Positions 7,400 through 47,463 of a DNA stretch of 64,000 nucleotides are shown piece by piece. Source of the stretch: Desulfovibrio sp. JC010 (GTDB taxonomy: Bacteria > Desulfobacterota > Desulfovibrionia > Desulfovibrionales > Desulfovibrionaceae); the NCBI RefSeq assembly GCF_010470675.1, contig NZ_VOIQ01000002.1, positions 62,001 through 126,000 on the forward strand, read 5' to 3'. Numbering within the stretch: the stretch's first letter is position 1; the number at the start of each line of letters is the position of its first letter. A model generated the notes under the pieces. It ran no database searches. It saw only the letters and a program-made list of their open reading frames with translations, and was not told the origin of the DNA. The translations under genes were made by a program, and so were the position numbers.

Positions 7400-7490
7400 G
7401 CAATCCTTTCAAGTTTTTTAATATGAGAAGTCTAACAATACCACTAATCCGAAGAAAAACATCAAAGGAATCTTTCTGAAAAATAGAAAT

Positions 7491-7517
7491 GTCCCGCCGA
7501 GCCAAGTTCAGCGGGAC
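7491..7517 (-). terminator. Terminator of the rel gene
   Basis: GTCCCGC and GCGGGAC arms lie 30 bases past the rel stop; the minus strand continues into a T-rich tail (ATTTCTATTTTTC). Confidence 0.7.
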
Positions 7518-7546
7518 GTTTTGTCATTGGTCAAAATGAGTCAGCC

Positions 7547-9718
7547 CTAACTCAACCGAGTAGCCTCCAAAACATGCTCAATAGTCTTGAGCTTGTTCAA
7601 AGAACGGTGCAGATGCCCGAGGTCGGTGACCTCAACGGTGAATTCGAGCACGGAACTGCCGTCGAGGTCGGACTTGAATTCACCGGAATCGATGTTCACG
7701 TCCATATCGGTCAGCACGGTACAGATCTTTGCCAGCATACCCTTGTGGTTGCGGCAGCGGATGCGGATCTGGGCCGGATGCTGGGATTCTTCCTGTCCTC
7801 CGGTCCATGAAACATTGAGCAGACGCTCTTCTTCCAGGTTCTTGATATTGGGACAGGTTGCAGAATGGATGACCACACCGCGTCCACGGCTGATGTAACC
7901 GATGATCGGCTCTCCCGGCAGCGGGGTGCAGCACCCTGCAAAACGGATCAGGACGTTATCCACACCTTCGATATCAATGGAATTAGCAGCACTCTTGGCC
8001 TTGTCCTCCTCGGTCTCGTGATGATGCTGTTCCGGCTTGGGTGCTTCTTCCACAACGCCCTCGACTTCATTGAGGATGGCATGGAGGCGTCCCAGCACCT
8101 TGCGCGGGGTGATGCGTGAATAGCCGATATTTGAAAGCAGATCATCCACGTGCCCGAAATTGAATTCATCAGCCAACATGATGAAATAACCGTCTTTCAT
8201 GGCCTTGGCCACATTGATATTCATGCGCCGGCCTTCTTTCTCAAGCAGCTCCTTGGCAAGAATGATGGAACGGGTCCGCTCCTCGGTGCGAATGTAGTGC
8301 TTGATCCTTGTGCGGGCCTTGGCGGTCTTTACGAACTTGAGCCAGTCGCGGCTGGGCTTGCGTTTTTTATCGGTGAAAACCTCGATGGTATCACCGTTCT
8401 TGAGCACGGAGTTGAGCGGCACCATGCGCCCATTGACCTTGGCCCCGGTACAGTGGTTACCTACCTCGGTGTGAATGGAGTAAGCAAAATCAACCGGGGT
8501 GGCACCGTCGGGAAGTTCTTTGATCTCACCAGCGGGGGTGAAGACGTAAACTTCGTCGTTAAAAAGATCGAAACGCAGCGAGGCCATGAATTCACGGGGG
8601 TCTTCCAGCTCGCGCTGCCAGTCCATGATCTGCCTGAGCCATGAAAATCGTTCCGCATCACGGTTGGTCTTGGCGTCGCTCTTGCCGGATTCCTTGTACT
8701 GCCAGTGGGCAGCAACACCGTATTCCGCCACCTGCTGCATCTCTTCGGTCCTGATCTGGATCTCGATACGCTCACCTTCCGGCCCGATGACCGTACTGTG
8801 CAGGGACTGGTACATATTGGCCTTGGGAATGGAAATATAATCCTTGAACTTACCGGAAACAGGCTTCCACATGGAGTGGACCAGACCGAGCACGGAATAA
8901 CAGTCCTTTACGGAATCAACGATGACCCGGAATGCAATAATGTCATGCACCTGATCAAGGCTTAAACCCTGACGCTGCATCTTCTTATGGATGGAATACT
9001 TGTGCTTGGTGCGTCCTTTGATGGTCCCCTTGATTTCGTTATCATCAAGGATACCGGTCAGCAGTCCGATGACGTTATCAACGTATTCCTTACCGATGGT
9101 GTGCTGGCGTTCCAGCCCGTCGGTAATATCCTGATAGACATCCGGCTTGAGGTAGAAGAGACAGAGATCTTCAAGATCGCGCTTGACCATGTACAACCCA
9201 AGCCTGTTGGCAAGGGGGGAGTAGATATCCATGGTTTCCTGCGCAATGAGCAGCTGCTTGTAATTCTTCTGAAAATCAAGGGTGCGCATATTATGCAGAC
9301 GGTCGGCGAGCTTGACCATGAGTACGCGGATATCTTCAGCCATAGCCAGAATCATCTTGCGGATATTCTCCGCCTTGGCGATAGCCTTGGATTCGAAATC
9401 CATCATCCCGATCTTGGTCACACCGTCAACAATGTCGGCAACTTCTTCACCGAAAAGATCAGCAATCTCGTCAATGGTGGTATCGGTATCTTCCACCGTA
9501 TCGTGCAGCAGTCCGGCGGCCACAGTGGGCTCATCAAGACGCATATCGGCCAGAATCTTGGCCACGTGCAGCGGATGGGCGAGATAAGGCTCACCGGAAA
9601 GGCGCACCTGACCTTCATGTGCCCGTGCGGAAAAGACGTAGGCCCTCTGGATCAAGTCCAGATCAGGATCATCAATATAGGTACTGACAACGTCAGTGAT
9701 TTCGTTAATGCGTATCAT
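7547..9718 (-). CDS. rel: Bifunctional (p)ppGpp synthetase/hydrolase (RelA/SpoT family)
   Basis: Alarmone enzyme of 723 residues for the stringent response. The start at 9718 (MIRINEITDVVS) is chosen because a longer frame would begin inside the preceding gene; it lies two bases after that gene's stop. Domains in order: HD hydrolase (LAHPLHVAKI and GLLHDTVEDTDT, about residues 40-110), synthetase with GRTKHKYSIHKKMQ and AFRVIVDS (about 235-330), TGS (VYVFTPAGEIKELPDGATP, about 385), a zinc/helical linker with two adjacent cysteines (IRFAGCCTPLPGEPI), and a C-terminal ACT domain. Both the HD motif and the synthetase loop are intact, so both activities are expected. It probably is co-transcribed with the upstream solute-binding lipoprotein. 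Confidence 0.96.
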   Translation of the reverse strand: MIRINEITDVVSTYIDDPDLDLIQRAYVFSARAHEGQVRLSGEPYLAHPLHVAKILADMRLDEPTVAAGLLHDTVEDTDTTIDEIADLFGEEVADIVDGVTKIGMMDFESKAIAKAENIRKMILAMAEDIRVLMVKLADRLHNMRTLDFQKNYKQLLIAQETMDIYSPLANRLGLYMVKRDLEDLCLFYLKPDVYQDITDGLERQHTIGKEYVDNVIGLLTGILDDNEIKGTIKGRTKHKYSIHKKMQRQGLSLDQVHDIIAFRVIVDSVKDCYSVLGLVHSMWKPVSGKFKDYISIPKANMYQSLHSTVIGPEGERIEIQIRTEEMQQVAEYGVAAHWQYKESGKSDAKTNRDAERFSWLRQIMDWQRELEDPREFMASLRFDLFNDEVYVFTPAGEIKELPDGATPVDFAYSIHTEVGNHCTGAKVNGRMVPLNSVLKNGDTIEVFTDKKRKPSRDWLKFVKTAKARTRIKHYIRTEERTRSIILAKELLEKEGRRMNINVAKAMKDGYFIMLADEFNFGHVDDLLSNIGYSRITPRKVLGRLHAILNEVEGVVEEAPKPEQHHHETEEDKAKSAANSIDIEGVDNVLIRFAGCCTPLPGEPIIGYISRGRGVVIHSATCPNIKNLEEERLLNVSWTGGQEESQHPAQIRIRCRNHKGMLAKICTVLTDMDVNIDSGEFKSDLDGSSVLEFTVEVTDLGHLHRSLNKLKTIEHVLEATRLS

Positions 9719-40682: not shown

Positions 40683-43043
40683 ATGCTGGCTATCTTAAAA
40701 AAAATAACAGGTTCGGACTCTTTTTTCCTCATCGCCACCGGACTGGCGGTCTCAATTCTGGTGGCAGCCCTCTATATTTTCCAGCCGCCCATCCTTCAAT
40801 TTGTGGATTACAAAATTTACGACCAGTACATGCGCTCCAGCCCGGTGGGCAAGAAGACAAACATTCCGGTAATTGTGGATATTGACGATGAAAGCCTTGC
40901 CGAACTGGGCCAGTGGCCATGGCCCCGCTACCGCATGGCCCTGCTGCTGGCAAAACTACAACAGGCCGGGGCACTTTCCACCGGGCTTGATATTCTCATC
41001 GGTGAACCGGACCGCACCTCTCCGTCCACCATCCGGGACAGCCTGCGAGAGGAACTGGGCGTAACCGTTGATTTCAAAGGACTTCCTCAAGGACTTATGG
41101 ATAACGACAAGGTCCTTGCCGATGTGCTGGAACGGGGCCGTTTTGTGCTCGGTTTCTATTTTGATTTTCTGGAAGACAAAAAGGACCCGTCAGTCATGGC
41201 ACTGCCCTGTTTTGCCAAACCGGTACCCATCGCCCAGATCAGGGCCAAGGGCGCGCCGGACCTCAAAGACCTGACCCTTAACGCACAGGACGCCATCTGC
41301 CCGCTCCCGGTGCTGGCCAAGGCCTCCCCCCTGTGCGGATTCTACAACTCCATCACCGATTATGACGGTGTTGTACGCCGGGTACCGCTGATCATCACCA
41401 TGGACGGCAAGCAATACCCCAGCCTTGCCCTTGCCACACTAATGAAAGCCATAGGCCGCAGGAATATCCTCGTTAAAACCAGCCCCATCGGTATTGAATC
41501 CATCAGACTGGGCAAAACCACCATCCCTGTCGATGCCAAAGGACAGATGATGGTCCGCTACCGGGGCGGCATGGAAGAATTCCCCTACTACAGTGCCAAG
41601 GATGTTCTGAGTGGAAAAGTCGGGGAAAAGGAACTCAAAAACAAAATAATTTTCATGGGCACCTCTGCCGCCGGACTGCGTGATTTAAGGGTTACCCCCT
41701 TTGCATCGGACTATCCGGGTGTTGAAGTGCACGCCACCATCGTGGACAACATCCTGACCAAGGACTTCATCCTCAAACCGGACTGGGTGCCCGGCCTTGA
41801 ACTGCTGCTGGTACTGGCGGCCGGCATAGGCTCCATGATCCTGCTGACCTGGACCCGTTCCATGTGGATGATCATGCCCATCGCAGTCATGGGTGCGGGC
41901 ATTGTTTACGGTTCCATCTACATTTTCCGGGAGTACGATGCTTATTTCACGCCCATGTACGCGCTCATTGTACTGGGCCTGAACTTCACCCTGCTGACCC
42001 TGATCAAGTTCTGGCGCGAAGAAGGCCAAAAAAAATTCCTGCAGGCCACATTCTCCTCCTATCTGGCCCCGGAACTCATCGACGAGATGTTCTCCAACCG
42101 TGAAATGCCGGAACTGGGCGGTGAAGCAAGGCAAGTCACCGCCTACTTCACCGACATCCAGAGCTTTTCCACCTTTTCTGAAAAGCTGACCGCGCCGCAG
42201 CTGGTTGAATTGCTTAACGAATACTTATCGGTAATGACCGATATTCTCATTGAGGAGAAAGGAACCCTTGATAAATACGAAGGTGACGCCATCATCGCCT
42301 TTTTCGGCGCCCCCATGGATGTGCCGGACCACGCCCTGCGCGCCTGCCGGGTGGCGGTGAAAATGCAGAATGCCGGACTTGAGCTGCGCGACAAATGGGC
42401 CAAGGAAGTACAGCTCCCGGACGAACCGGACCGCAACACCAAGAACTTCCCCGAAGAGCAATGGGCCAAGGGCGAAAAGTGGCCCAAGGTAGTGCACAAC
42501 ATGCGCACAAGGATCGGAGTCAACTCCGGTGAAATCGTGGTCGGAAACATGGGCTCATCCATGCGCATGAACTACACCATGATGGGCGACGCTGTTAACC
42601 TCGCCGCCCGCCTGGAAGAGGGTGCCAAGCAATTCGGCATCTTCAATGCGGTTTCCCATTTCACCCTTGATCAGGAAGTGGAAGTAAACGGAGAAACCCA
42701 CAAGATTCTTGATCTGGTGGAAGCAAGGCTTATCGATAACATTCAGGTGGTCGGTAAAAACGAACCCGTGCGCATCTACGAGCTTGTAGCCATGAAAGGC
42801 GGCCTGACCGAAAGCGAGGAGATCCTCTTCGACCTCTTCAACAAAGCCCGCGAAGAGTACGTGGCCCAGAACTGGGACAAGGCCATTGAAATATACACCG
42901 AAGCCAACAAATACGAACGATACGACGACACAAAATTCACACCCTGCGATGTGTTCATCAAACGCGCCGAGGAGCACAAGATTAATCCGCCCGTACCTGA
43001 AGGCGAAGTCTGGGACGGGGTTTATCGGATGACTAAGAAGTAG
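40683..43043 (+). CDS. CHASE2-domain adenylate/guanylate cyclase
   Basis: A 786-residue receptor cyclase. One TM segment near residues 14-33, then a periplasmic CHASE2 sensor (about 40-345; PVIVDIDDESLAELGQWPWP, VVRRVPLIITMDGKQYPSL, TSAAGLRDLRVTPFASDYPG), three TM segments (about 355-440), and a class III cyclase domain (about 470-680) with metal aspartates in YFTDIQSFSTFSE and LDKYEGDAIIAFFGAP, and MMGDAVNLAARLE. The catalytic lysine and Asp are kept. The C-terminal end has a TPR-like helical stretch. It is divergent from the secretion genes and precedes the ATPase/nuclease pair. cAMP production is expected, specificity not certain. Confidence 0.93.
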   Translation: MLAILKKITGSDSFFLIATGLAVSILVAALYIFQPPILQFVDYKIYDQYMRSSPVGKKTNIPVIVDIDDESLAELGQWPWPRYRMALLLAKLQQAGALSTGLDILIGEPDRTSPSTIRDSLREELGVTVDFKGLPQGLMDNDKVLADVLERGRFVLGFYFDFLEDKKDPSVMALPCFAKPVPIAQIRAKGAPDLKDLTLNAQDAICPLPVLAKASPLCGFYNSITDYDGVVRRVPLIITMDGKQYPSLALATLMKAIGRRNILVKTSPIGIESIRLGKTTIPVDAKGQMMVRYRGGMEEFPYYSAKDVLSGKVGEKELKNKIIFMGTSAAGLRDLRVTPFASDYPGVEVHATIVDNILTKDFILKPDWVPGLELLLVLAAGIGSMILLTWTRSMWMIMPIAVMGAGIVYGSIYIFREYDAYFTPMYALIVLGLNFTLLTLIKFWREEGQKKFLQATFSSYLAPELIDEMFSNREMPELGGEARQVTAYFTDIQSFSTFSEKLTAPQLVELLNEYLSVMTDILIEEKGTLDKYEGDAIIAFFGAPMDVPDHALRACRVAVKMQNAGLELRDKWAKEVQLPDEPDRNTKNFPEEQWAKGEKWPKVVHNMRTRIGVNSGEIVVGNMGSSMRMNYTMMGDAVNLAARLEEGAKQFGIFNAVSHFTLDQEVEVNGETHKILDLVEARLIDNIQVVGKNEPVRIYELVAMKGGLTESEEILFDLFNKAREEYVAQNWDKAIEIYTEANKYERYDDTKFTPCDVFIKRAEEHKINPPVPEGEVWDGVYRMTKK

Positions 43044-43071
43044 GAACTCCGGCGTACCTGTTTAGTGAAAA

Positions 43072-43104
43072 ATTCTCAGGTGATATTGACAAATCCCTGA
43101 GAAT
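43072..43104 (+). promoter_or_regulatory. Inverted repeat around a -35-like TTGACA upstream of the ATPase gene
   Basis: ATTCTCAGG and CCTGAGAAT are perfect 9-base arms separated by 15 bases that contain TTGACA (43086-43091). No T run follows, so it fits an operator better than a terminator. No -10 box at the right distance is clear. Confidence 0.4.
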
Positions 43105-43139
43105 GAAGAACTTCACGGGTATAACTTTGCGAGGAAAAT

Positions 43140-44399
43140 ATGAAATTACTGATCGAGAATTTTTACAATATCAAGCACGCCGAACTGGATTTCAAAAAGT
43201 TCAACATACTGATCGGCCCGCAGGCTGCCGGGAAGAGTTTGATTGCGAAGGTGCTGTATTTTATGGAAGATAGGATCTTGCACTACAGTGCACATGAACT
43301 AGCTGATCCTGATATAGAGACAAAAGAGTTTAATAAAGATTCGCTAAAGTTATTTTATTCAATTTTTGAAAAAAAATCCTTAGACATCAACTTTAAACTA
43401 ACTATAAGCAATAACATAAATCGGACATGGGAATTCACTTATACTGGATTCAACCCAAACGATTTAAAAGATATTACCCTTAGCGAAACTCAAGAAAATC
43501 CATCCATATCTTCTGCTGTAAAAACAGTTGTCCAGCACGCTCTTGAGAACAACATTGACTTTGCGAAAAGTATGGGCAAAAAATTTAACTCTGAAATAGA
43601 TAAGGATGCATTTTTAAGCAAAGTATACAACTACATAGTCAGCGGACTTCCACCCGAAGCAGACACTAGACGTATATTCATTCCAGCATCAAGATCTCTA
43701 GTAAACACTATTTCAGACAATTCATTCTGGATGACAGAAAACAATGTTGACTTTTTGCTAAATAAATTTGGCCAGATATACTCACGTCAAATTAAAAAAG
43801 ACACTGAAGACGCGCCCATAGAGTGTTATCAGCTCAGCAGTATCATTAAAGGAAATATTGAAAGATCAAACAACGAATACTTTATTAATGAGAATGGAAG
43901 AACTGTCGCTCTATCCAATGCATCATCAGGACAACAAGCAGCAACACCTATTCTAATTGGCTTAAATAGAGTACAAAACAAAGATATATTTCATGCTTTC
44001 ATCGAAGAACCAGAAGCCCACATATTCCCCGAAGCCCAATATTTGCTAACACGCTATATCTCGGAAATACATAACCATGCAGAAACCAAAATAACCCTAA
44101 CCACCCACAGCCCCTACATCCTAACAGCAGTAAACACCCTCATCTACGCAGGAACTGTAGGCAAACAAAGTGAAGCAAAAGCCGCAAAGGTCAAAGAAAT
44201 TATCCCTGAAGACCAGTGGCTGAATTCTGAAGACGTAGCCGCTTACATGGTGGAAGCAGACGGAGCAGTACGCTCGATCATGGATGAAGAGACTGGACTG
44301 ATTGAAGCGGATAGCATCGACGATGTTTCCGATGTAATTGGCGCAGAATTCAATAAATTGCTGGACATTGAATTTGATGAAGAGGGACACGATGAGTAA
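43140..44399 (+). CDS. OLD/ABC-type ATPase without nuclease domain, candidate defence subunit
   Basis: A 419-residue SMC/OLD-like ATPase. Walker A is IGPQAAGKS (residues 26-33), the ABC signature LSNASSGQQ (258-266), Walker B FIEEPEAHIFPEAQ (287-300) and the switch TTHSPY (321-326). OLD-family nucleases have a C-terminal TOPRIM domain; here the chain stops about 95 residues after the switch without one. The next gene overlaps by 8 bases and encodes a PD-(D/E)XK-like protein that could supply the nuclease. Composition is uneven: the middle is AT-rich (two 60-base lines at 43321 and 43381 contain 12 and 18 G+C), while both ends are GC-balanced. This looks like an acquired or recombined module. 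Function is inferred. Confidence 0.82.
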   Translation: MKLLIENFYNIKHAELDFKKFNILIGPQAAGKSLIAKVLYFMEDRILHYSAHELADPDIETKEFNKDSLKLFYSIFEKKSLDINFKLTISNNINRTWEFTYTGFNPNDLKDITLSETQENPSISSAVKTVVQHALENNIDFAKSMGKKFNSEIDKDAFLSKVYNYIVSGLPPEADTRRIFIPASRSLVNTISDNSFWMTENNVDFLLNKFGQIYSRQIKKDTEDAPIECYQLSSIIKGNIERSNNEYFINENGRTVALSNASSGQQAATPILIGLNRVQNKDIFHAFIEEPEAHIFPEAQYLLTRYISEIHNHAETKITLTTHSPYILTAVNTLIYAGTVGKQSEAKAAKVKEIIPEDQWLNSEDVAAYMVEADGAVRSIMDEETGLIEADSIDDVSDVIGAEFNKLLDIEFDEEGHDE

Positions 44400-44844
44400 A
44401 AAGTGCACCACTTCTTACAATCAAAAAAGAATCACCTTAGTAGACAAAAGCGACAAAGAAGCAAAGGCAGAACTTCATGTTGAGAATAAGGAAAAAATCA
44501 AATTTGATGTGATCGATTTTGATGGATGCGTAAAGCCACAAAACACAGCCTGTGACTACGTCTTGGTCACTAACAAAAAACAAAGCAAAAAAAACATAGC
44601 CTTATATGTCGAACTAAAAGGATCAGACATACCTAAAGCATACAAGCAAATAGAAGTCGCTGCCGTACACTACAAACATCAGCACAACAACATAACAAAA
44701 ACAGGCATAGTCTCATTCACTGGACAATTTGGAACCCCAAAAACCAAAACAAAACTTCAGTTATTAGAAGCAAAATTTAGAAAGAAATATAATCTAAAAA
44801 TGATCAGACAGCGTAGTCCAGCAACACACAGACTAAACGTCTAA
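44392..44844 (+). CDS. Small PD-(D/E)XK-like protein coupled to the ATPase
   Basis: A 150-residue protein. The ATG at 44392 lies inside the ATPase stop region, overlapping 8 bases, so it is translationally coupled. The order Asp55 (ACDYVLV), Glu74-x-Lys76 (YVELKGSD) and Gln86 (YKQIE) fits the PD-(D/E)XK nuclease fold, and the length matches small stand-alone nucleases. The C-terminal end is basic (KKYNLKMIRQR). No homologue is recognised with certainty. It shares the AT-rich composition of the ATPase gene. It would be the effector of a two-gene defence system, but this has no experimental support here. Confidence 0.7.
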   Translation: MSKKCTTSYNQKRITLVDKSDKEAKAELHVENKEKIKFDVIDFDGCVKPQNTACDYVLVTNKKQSKKNIALYVELKGSDIPKAYKQIEVAAVHYKHQHNNITKTGIVSFTGQFGTPKTKTKLQLLEAKFRKKYNLKMIRQRSPATHRLNV

Positions 44845-44850
44845 CAACAA

Positions 44851-44890
44851 AACTCCCCCTGCCGCACCAGACGACAGGGGGAGTTAAATT
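44851..44890 (+). terminator. Terminator of the ATPase/nuclease pair
   Basis: AACTCCCCCTG pairs with CAGGGGGAGTT, followed by AAATTTT. It closes the two-gene unit. Confidence 0.75.
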
Positions 44891-44983: not shown

Positions 44984-47278
44984 TCACCTCACCCGAAAAA
45001 CCCGCGCCCCCTCCGAGCTGTCCTCCACATTGAACCCAAGCTCCAAAAGCTTATCACGCAGACCGTCAGCAGTGGCGAAGTCTTTGTTTGCACGGGCAAG
45101 CTCGCGCTGTTCAAGTAGATCTTTTGCGTCCTCGGGCAGGGAGACGAAGGGTACGGGCATGGCTTCGTGGTCGAGGATACCGAGGATGTCGTCCACTTCG
45201 AGAAGCTGGTCGAGGCAGAATTTGGCTTCCTTGCCAGAAAGCTTGCCGCTGCCCAGCTGGGAATTGATGGACTTGGTGAAGCTGAACAGGATGGGCCAGA
45301 AACGGTGCAGCATGAGATTATCGTTCAGGGCCTGCGAAAGTCCGGACTTGAGAGTGAAAACCTCCTGATCAATATCTTCCGAGACCTGCCCGGAATCCCC
45401 GGCATGCACGCTTAATCCTGCGGCAAGATCCTGCAATTTCTGCTGGTTCTTGACCCACATGGAAATGGACTGTTCGCTGCAAACCAGCGGTTTTTTGTAG
45501 GAAGAAGAAAGCATCCACATGCGCACGGCGATGGGCTGGCCGGACTGTTCGAGGAGTTCATCCACACAGGGCAGCACCGGGCCTCCGGGAAGTACCGGCT
45601 GGGCCACCATCCATGCCTGCGGGGAAACCCCGGCCCCGGCCCAGATGGCGCGCAGGTTTTCCAGATGCGGAAAACGGTGGATTTCCCCGGCCAGTACGAG
45701 ACTTACTCCGGGCAGACCTTCAAGGGCGGTCACCGCCTGCTGCATAAACCAGCTGGGGCGTACATTGCCCCACTCGGTCTCAAGAATGTCGCCGAGCTTG
45801 AGATCCTGCAGGGTGGCCCGCTTGAGCAGGGTAAAATCGCGCGGATTCTCCTTCACGTAATCATCCATATCCACAGTCTTGCCGAGACTCACTTTGTCGA
45901 TATCCATATTGGACATCTGGCCGTAGCCCTTGTCGCGGGAGATGTCGAAATATACGGAACGCAGCTTTTCGTAAGCCAGCCCGTGGGCCAGCAGGGCGCG
46001 GCAAAGTTCTACCGTACGGTCTACGGACTCGGAAGCGCGCTCAAAACGCATGGATTTGCGCACGCCCAGCAGGTATGCGGCCTTGCGCACAGCTGTAGCA
46101 ATCTCAGTAGAAAATGTATTGCGGTCCACACCCCGTTCACGGGAGGCAGCCAAGGTCTGATCCTCAAGGTCAGCCAGCCCCACCAGCGCGGAAACCTTGG
46201 CTCCTTCACGCTCAAGATGACGGGCCAACACATCCAGAAGCACAATACGCCGGAACACTTCCGGATCATAAGGGTTGTCAAAAGACGGTCCCATGGTGAA
46301 CAGCCCGGTTTCAGCTTCAGAGATGGAAAGTACCCGGTCCTCGCCGCTGCTATGATCAAAAAGCTTCGGTCCTTTCAAAGCCTGCGGACGGAACAACGGG
46401 GTGGAAAGATAGCGTTCACCGCCATCGGGAAAAATGGTCACCACCATGCCGTCTTCCAGTTCGGATGCAATATCAGCCGCCCCGGCCATGGCCGCGCCGG
46501 AACTCATGCCCACGAACACGCCCTCTTCCCTGGCAAGGCGGCGGCAGGCATCAAAGGCATCATTATCCTGCACCCGGATGATGCGGTCCAGCTTCTGCTT
46601 ATCGTAAATGCCGGGGGGATAGGACTCCTGCATGTTCTTAAGGCCCTGAATTTTATGTCCCGGTTCAGGTTCCACGGCAATGATCTGAATATCCTTATTC
46701 AATTCCTTGAGCCGCTTGGTGATGCCCATGACTGTACCGGAAGTTCCGAGACAGGCCACAACATGGGTCACCCTGCCCTCTGTCTGGTCCCAGATCTCCT
46801 GCCCGGTGCCTTCGTAATGGGCTTCGATGGAGGCTTCATTATTGTATTGGTCCATGAGCAGGTATTTTTCCGGCTCCTCACGGTAAAAACGGTAAGCCTG
46901 TTCGATTGCCCCGTCCGTGGCGAGATGTCCGGGAGTGAGCATTATCTCGGCCCCGTAGGCACGCATGATCATCTTACGCTCCTCGGAAGCGGTCTCGGGC
47001 ATGATCAGCATCAACTTGTAACCGCGCACGGCACAGGCCATGGCCAGCCCGATCCCGGTATTGCCGGAAGTAGCTTCGATGATAACTTTATCCGGGGTAA
47101 GCTCCCCGCTGCGCTCGGCACTGCGGATCATGGCCCCGGCTGCGCGGTCCTTGATGGACCCTCCGGGATTCATGGATTCCAGCTTAGCCAGAATCTTGAC
47201 ATTTTTATTGGGATTAAGCCCCTGCATCTCAACAAGGGGGGTTCCGCCGACCAGTTCCAAAATATCACGAGCAAACAT
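44984..47278 (-). CDS. Cysteine synthase fused to a degenerate cysteinyl-tRNA synthetase-like domain
   Basis: A 764-residue fusion. The start at 47278 (MFARDILELVGGTPL) has GAAAGGA nine bases upstream. Residues about 1-305 are a PLP-dependent cysteine synthase (SMNPGGSIKDRAA with the PLP lysine, EATSGNTGIGLAMAC, CLGTSGTVMGITKRL, VFVGMSSGAAMAG, FPDGGERYLST). About 330-764 resemble CysRS: SEAETGLFTMGPSFDNPYDP aligns with the CGPTVYD region and LEQRELARANKDFATADGLR with its C-terminal domain. The HIGH sequence is absent and no KMSKS is seen, so it cannot be a normal synthetase. A regulatory or CysRS-binding role is possible. It is followed by repeat F. Confidence 0.88.
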   Translation of the reverse strand: MFARDILELVGGTPLVEMQGLNPNKNVKILAKLESMNPGGSIKDRAAGAMIRSAERSGELTPDKVIIEATSGNTGIGLAMACAVRGYKLMLIMPETASEERKMIMRAYGAEIMLTPGHLATDGAIEQAYRFYREEPEKYLLMDQYNNEASIEAHYEGTGQEIWDQTEGRVTHVVACLGTSGTVMGITKRLKELNKDIQIIAVEPEPGHKIQGLKNMQESYPPGIYDKQKLDRIIRVQDNDAFDACRRLAREEGVFVGMSSGAAMAGAADIASELEDGMVVTIFPDGGERYLSTPLFRPQALKGPKLFDHSSGEDRVLSISEAETGLFTMGPSFDNPYDPEVFRRIVLLDVLARHLEREGAKVSALVGLADLEDQTLAASRERGVDRNTFSTEIATAVRKAAYLLGVRKSMRFERASESVDRTVELCRALLAHGLAYEKLRSVYFDISRDKGYGQMSNMDIDKVSLGKTVDMDDYVKENPRDFTLLKRATLQDLKLGDILETEWGNVRPSWFMQQAVTALEGLPGVSLVLAGEIHRFPHLENLRAIWAGAGVSPQAWMVAQPVLPGGPVLPCVDELLEQSGQPIAVRMWMLSSSYKKPLVCSEQSISMWVKNQQKLQDLAAGLSVHAGDSGQVSEDIDQEVFTLKSGLSQALNDNLMLHRFWPILFSFTKSINSQLGSGKLSGKEAKFCLDQLLEVDDILGILDHEAMPVPFVSLPEDAKDLLEQRELARANKDFATADGLRDKLLELGFNVEDSSEGARVFRVR

Positions 47279-47463
47279 TTTATCTAATCCTTTCAGGTAA
47301 TTATCTTTAAGAAAACGAATTTCAGGCCTCGTCCTTTTCATTTCTGGCAATCATTTTGCAAATAGAGGGCAGATATCACATCAGTCTGGTTGGAAAAACC
47401 GGGGCAAGGAATGAACCCGGCACAGCTACAGCTAATAAAAACAGTCTGCCAAGGACGGAACAA

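Follow-up and report, generated by a model that had tools for sequence, protein, structure and literature searches.

WonAB, a two-gene system of the WASA-1 prophage of Vibrio cholerae (Adams et al. 2025, Nat Microbiol, PMC12137116), is among the described systems closest to the gene pair examined here, A and B, which lies in a 64,000-nucleotide stretch of contig NZ_VOIQ01000002.1 from Desulfovibrio sp. JC010 (the window; all coordinates are window positions). As reported for WonAB, defence needs both genes, residues K34, R182, E300 and H333 of WonA and K71 of WonB are essential, and protection takes the form of abortive infection after the onset of phage DNA replication. In that account translation is halted with the chromosomal DNA intact, tRNA or rRNA being the suspected target; WonB, a protein of 16.1 kDa, docks on the dimerised C-terminal extensions of WonA, and its overproduction is toxic only with active WonA. 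Two papers, PMC12137116 and PMC12409358, credit the architecture, termed OLD-ABC ATPase + Novel REase (restriction endonuclease), to Krishnan, Burroughs, Iyer & Aravind 2020. Pairs of an OLD-ABC ATPase with a PD-(D/E)XK or another nuclease are also reported beside BREX systems (PMC12839542), and PD-T4-4 is listed under both PF13175 and PD(D/E)XK (PMC10952713).

We conclude that A and B form a divergent member of this published architecture of an OLD-ABC ATPase plus REase, which is represented by WonAB, PD-T4-4 and the PADLOC entry PDC-M29. An earlier note on the window, made from its letters without database searches, could put no name to the pairing, a claim that no longer holds. Its suggestion of phage defence, drawn from gene architecture, is supported as probable: A and B constitute a conserved, operon-like two-gene unit that is probably a defence system. 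With a rough probability of 70%, we propose that the pair is an abortive-infection system of the WonAB type. On detecting phage infection, the ATPase would activate the small protein as a nuclease, whose predicted effect is a block of host translation and not cleavage of incoming DNA.

Genes A and B

The pair and its main parts are located as follows.

43140..44399, plus strand: gene A, an OLD-type ABC ATPase of 419 amino acids without a TOPRIM domain, assigned from AAA_15 and PADLOC matches, invariant residues and a structural model; putative WonA-like sensor/ATPase
43215..43238, plus strand: Walker A motif of A, GPQAAGKS, residues 26-33
43275..43679, plus strand: hypervariable middle of A, residues 46-180, with 19-26% mean identity among five species of the genus
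44175..44396, plus strand: C-terminal extension of A, residues 346-419, with 73% mean identity in the genus; presumed equivalent of the WonA docking surface
44392..44844, plus strand: gene B, 150 amino acids, start ATG at 44392, with a PD-(D/E)XK signature, assigned from a PDC-M29B match, motif invariance and a model with a predicted local distance difference test (pLDDT) score of 88; putative WonB-like effector nuclease
44554..44649, plus strand: active-site stretch of B, with D55 at 44554-44556, E74 at 44611-44613, K76 at 44617-44619 and Q86 at 44647-44649

The open reading frames of A and B, both on the plus strand, share an 8-base overlap. In the Pfam scan A matched AAA_15 (8.4e-21) and AAA_21, and no TOPRIM domain was matched before the protein ends at residue 419. 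The earlier note had described just such an arrangement, two overlapping genes of which the first encodes an OLD/ABC-type ATPase lacking TOPRIM, and both points were borne out. Among PADLOC profiles A ranked PDC-M29A first (4.8e-27), followed by AriA (8.4e-23) and PD-T4-4_A (1.6e-21). A sequence search of solved structures returned OLD (6p74) as the best match (E 0.0024), and in a fold search the predicted structure resembled PtuA, SMC/Rad50 heads and AriA. At 1e-3, one match to A was found in the window's own genome. The Walker A motif, R185, the signature, the Walker B motif and H323 are invariant among 26 aligned ATPases, and K32, R185, E290 and H323 are unchanged in 26/26; by motif order these four residues are the counterparts of K34, R182, E300 and H333 of WonA, and the glutamate and the histidine are 33 residues apart in both proteins.

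In an alignment of 74 B proteins, that of the window included, D55, E74, K76 and Q86 are unchanged in every sequence, at the positions given in the earlier note, and the invariant K76 appears from its position to be the counterpart of WonB K71. The model of B is confident and its elements follow a PD-(D/E)XK-like order: D55 stands directly before strand 56-60, E74 and K76 at the end of strand 69-75, and Q86 in helix 80-93. This order of elements accords with the nuclease suggested in the earlier note, though fold searches of solved structures gave no decisive nuclease match, the weak nuclease-like ones being BamHI, Mus81, FokI and EndoMS. With B, the viral fold library yielded nothing below 0.001 and the sequence search of solved structures nothing useful; no Pfam family exceeded its cut-off (RE_endonuc reached 14.4 bits against the 23.4 required), and neither TOPRIM nor HNH was matched in Pfam up to E 1. 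The only PADLOC match was PDC-M29B (8.2e-5, residues 4-140), with none to AriB, PtuB or PD-T4-4_B up to E 1. B is described here as a predicted PD-(D/E)XK-like nuclease.

A-B and WonAB have in common a two-gene operon in which the ATPase precedes the nuclease, the combination of an OLD-type ABC ATPase without TOPRIM and a small PD-(D/E)xK protein, and a C-terminal extension of the ATPase.

The cysteines near the nuclease motif of B are mostly kept (C5 in 66/74, C46 in 63/74 and C54 in 73/74). A four-ligand metal site made up of C5, C46, C54 and H98 seemed constant among 8 sequences, but we dropped the idea because H98 is retained in only 20 of the 74.

Occurrence of the pair

Searching 297 genomes of the class with B gave six matches, each with A directly upstream. 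When a genome collection was scanned with the B alignment, 30 of 69 pattern-matching stretches were confirmed, and A was upstream of B at all 30, complete at 24 and cut by contig ends at six (loci L009, L010, L011, L020, L028 and L037; in L010 and L037 the frames are apparently broken as well, and the detected pieces of L037 are 178 bases apart). A viral collection added one confirmed B among 27 stretches, likewise with A upstream. In all searches together, A was found just upstream at 37/37 B loci, truncated at a contig end in six cases. Cyanobacteria host 21 of the 30 collection loci; the others come, one each, from Pseudomonas, Myroides, Faecalibacterium, Lachnospiraceae, Pseudoflavonifractor, Provencibacterium, Bacteroidales, Saprospira and Bacteroidetes records.

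The A-side search gave six places at 416-451 bits, with B next to A at every one. The earlier note had reasoned that ATPase homologues lacking B would speak against its view, and among these close ATPases there were none. The next ATPases scored 125, 119, 102 and 75 bits. Those of G085 (125 bits) and G218 (119 bits) have weak B-like partners (2.1e-6 and 3.6e-9); that of G286 (102 bits) has no B-like partner within 1101 bases, and for that of G136 (75 bits) just 188 bases of flank were open to the check. In this check all 23 partnerless rows scored 152 bits or less; one place can be represented in it by several loci, its ATPase profile derives from the very loci examined, and many weaker ATPases of the 294-genome search lay outside it. 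Distances among A and among B proteins correlate (r 0.954 for 31 pairs and 0.897 for 16 thinned pairs; 0/2000 permutations each), part of which would be expected from common ancestry alone. A scan of 395 genomes with PDLC04563 is silent on absence because it missed even the window's own copy and found no control.

In the genus, a cyclase gene and a PALP/cysteinyl-tRNA synthetase (CysRS) gene are convergent neighbours in 17/17 genomes. In the window these are a CHASE2/adenylate-cyclase gene upstream of the pair (40683-43043, plus strand) and a fused PALP/CysRS-like gene downstream (44984-47350, minus strand), both identified with Pfam. The spot between them holds the pair in five genomes (G000, G042, G073, G103 and G191), other cargo in six (1316-3067 bases between flank matches), and is near-empty in the remaining six (63-169 bases). 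Compared with the window copy, A shows 51-63% identity in the four sister species, where identity of both flanking proteins is 85-95%.

Elsewhere the neighbours of the pair resemble ordinary chromosomal genes, as judged by eye at 12 loci, and a defence-island setting was not supported there. By eye, the pair in L036 (3758-7330) lies between the apparent halves of a split transketolase, which suggests a stand-alone insertion. On a Microcoleus contig (L012), an open reading frame resembling a DNA methyltransferase by eye (7431-8294) lies just upstream of the pair.

Mode of action

Under the proposed WonAB-type abortive infection, A would sense phage infection through its hypervariable middle and would act as a dimeric ATPase, B would dock on the C-terminal extensions of A, and A would switch B on as a nuclease after infection. 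Activated B may then target RNA, tRNA or rRNA, with host translation stopping and the infected cell shutting down. The steps from dimerisation to RNA targeting are modelled on WonAB.

The pair might instead cut phage or host DNA directly, with A loading on DNA like Rad50 or OLD and B serving as a DNase, in the way of Gabija- or restriction-like systems. The resemblance of the A model to SMC/Rad50 heads and PtuA is consistent with this idea; BamHI, Mus81, FokI and EndoMS, to which B shows weak nuclease-like matches, are DNases; and one screen reported direct immunity for 7 of the 11 defence systems that contain DNA-binding or DNA-cleavage parts. However, WonB, which has the same layout and motifs, is reported to have spared chromosomal DNA and halted translation (PMC12137116), and we regard direct cutting as unlikely. 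Overlapping genes, presence or absence at a single spot and constant pairing could also characterise a toxin-antitoxin or selfish cassette, in which B would be a toxin held by A and the unit would be retained by addiction with no defence role; this is quite improbable, given that the WonAB nuclease is toxic only with its ATPase present and active, for which reason the WonAB authors excluded simple sequestration (PMC12137116). A role in chromosomal repair or maintenance, with an SbcC/RecF-like ATPase and a nuclease partner unrelated to phage, is scarcely credible in spite of the likeness of A to Rad50/SMC heads and the ordinary-looking neighbours elsewhere, since the pair is carried by only five of the 17 genomes in the genus and by six of 297 in the class, and A has diverged far more between sister species than the flanking proteins.

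The WonAB-type reading ties the previously unannotated pair and its relatives in cyanobacteria, Pseudomonas, and Bacteroidetes-type and Firmicutes-type hosts to an architecture with a partly worked-out mechanism, and the OLD-ABC ATPase plus nuclease architecture gains a 74-member effector alignment.

The variable middle of A and its constant 5' end

Mean identity of A among the five species of the genus that carry it is 90% over residues 1-45, falls to 26% over residues 46-100 and 19%, with 30% gaps, over residues 101-180, and rises again to 46-51% over residues 181-285 and 80% over residues 286-345 ahead of the C-terminal extension. Three stretches inside residues 109-174 of the A model have a pLDDT below 50. 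We infer that the hypervariable middle is the sensor; if so, natural alleles with near-constant ends could map a WonAB-type trigger by domain comparison. The pair is AT-rich, as the earlier note stated, though unevenly so along A: its two 1-kb bins contain 36.6% and 41.8% G+C, the former being the minimum among the 64 bins of the window, in which several other bins are at 42-44%, and within A the G+C content is 42% in codons 1-45, 30-37% in codons 46-285 and 45-46% in codons 286-419.

Three further features flank or overlap the ends of the pair.

43077..43270, plus strand: near-constant 5' block comprising the upstream region, ribosome site and codons 1-44 (end taken from the alignment)
43072..43104, no strand assigned: candidate operator, dyad ATTCTCAGG-N15-CCTGAGAAT around TTGACA
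44851..44885, no strand assigned: strong hairpin, terminator-like for the opposite (minus) strand, probably belonging to the site and not to the pair

DNA identity among the five species is 0.22 around and just past the cyclase stop (43033-43046), 0.83-1.00 over 43077-43256 and 0.24-0.57 thereafter. The block is nearly identical in G042, G073, G103 and G191 though the rest of A has diverged. At residues of A that are unchanged, third-position identity reaches 0.79 over residues 1-45, against 0.44-0.57 in the other stretches; this low divergence even at third positions suggests that the 5' end of A may have been shaped by recombination or a recent sweep and not by protein constraint alone. Each of the five pair-bearing genomes has one copy of the block and the other 12 have none at 1e-3, which gives no hint of silent copies. 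One could envisage A as a swap-in sensor: the constant front (operator, start, Walker A and codons 1-44) and the conserved rear, from Walker B through the docking tail, would be maintained by recombination at one chromosomal spot, and the middle exchanged between alleles recognising different phage triggers, so that the genus would have one immune receptor with interchangeable recognition domains. We offer this extension tentatively and consider it doubtful.

The candidate operator of the earlier note stood in part: the dyad is real and common to the five species, but its quality varies. In G042 both arms are altered together and 12/12 positions pair. Shuffle tests rated the dyad strong in G042 (0/2000) and G191 (10/12 paired, 10/2000), fair in G000 (63/2000), and weak in G073 (416/2000) and G103 (1349/2000). 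Upstream of A there was no convincing -35/-10 pair, with 4 promoter-like sites against 4.6 expected; the TTGACA near the dyad centre lies 28 bases ahead of a TATAAC. The earlier note also gave the unit its own terminator, which was not supported. The hairpin has a terminator score for the strand opposite to the pair, and similar hairpins are seen by eye at the same position in the cargo-free G125 and in G257, which has other cargo, so that it looks like a terminator serving the neighbouring gene or the site itself. Besides this hairpin, the repeat search found only short imperfect repeats.

Other cargo at the spot

In G100, G101, G132 and G038 (L111, L112, L114 and L115) the cargo is one protein of 649-917 amino acids, with AAA_16 in three (below the curated cut-off), PPR-type repeats in three and no PADLOC match. 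By eye these are STAND-like proteins combining a nucleoside triphosphatase (NTPase) with repeats, and possibly undescribed defence genes. The cargo of G257 and G120 is a Fic protein; the G257 copy, from the one genome of this kind scanned with PADLOC, matches SoFic (1.1e-44). Fic proteins were observed at the spot in L113, L116 and L117. In G191 a protein that by eye closely resembles the Fic protein of G257 lies beside the pair, the two seemingly occurring together. The window gene at 44984-47350 (minus strand) encodes a 788-amino-acid fusion of a PALP domain (cysteine-synthase type), a CysRS catalytic domain and CysS_C; the fusion is present in 17/17 genomes of the genus, which also contain weaker, separate matches to its halves. 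The spot, which also accommodates a SoFic-type gene and large repeat-bearing NTPases, is a place to seek more defence genes in sulfate reducers. The remaining interest lies in this spot, in the variable middle between near-constant ends, and in C5, C46 and C54.

Comparison with described systems

Three systems differ from the pair in their partner proteins. PARIS has a separate TOPRIM effector, AriB, whereas B has no TOPRIM or AriB match; Septu has the HNH effector PtuB, whereas B matches neither HNH nor PtuB; and Gabija combines an ATPase-TOPRIM fusion with a UvrD-like helicase, whereas A has no TOPRIM match and is partnered by B. PD-T4-4 (Vassallo et al. 2022, PMC9519451; PMC10952713) is reported to share the combination of an AAA_15-type ATPase with a PD-(D/E)XK partner, but when profiles were compared PD-T4-4_B matched only 1 of 74 aligned B proteins, at 0.004. 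The pair has the same architecture as OLD-ABC ATPase + Novel REase, as that is described in the citing papers.

PADLOC PDC-M29 is the best match of A and the sole match of B, an assignment that denotes the best profile match of both components, with the PADLOC coverage and synteny rules outside the comparison. PDC stands for phage-defence candidate; a literature search found no paper naming PDC-M29. Ten ATPases were scanned in PADLOC, drawn from the 30 further loci at which A is complete. PDC-M29A ranked first in six (L007, L008, L014, L029, L034 and L038), with a nearly full-length match at 1.3e-56 for L034 (Bacteroidales), second after AriA in L018 and L030, and third after AriA and PD-T4-4_A in L031 and L036. 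The PDC-M29B models PDLC04563 and PDLC04564 matched 64 and 25 of the 74 B proteins, that of the window included. The window members differ in forming a divergent branch (8.2e-5 for B).

WonAB differs in its host, a Vibrio as opposed to a Desulfovibrio-type bacterium, and in its setting, a prophage as opposed to a fixed chromosomal spot. Our comparison with WonAB rests on layout, key residues and primer-encoded peptides. In one of three frames, a printed quantitative PCR primer for WonA encodes PQANGK, matching the Walker A motif of the A family, and, also in one of three frames, printed WonB primers encode NCLKGS and CDWILS, which resemble the C46 and C54-D55 motifs of B.
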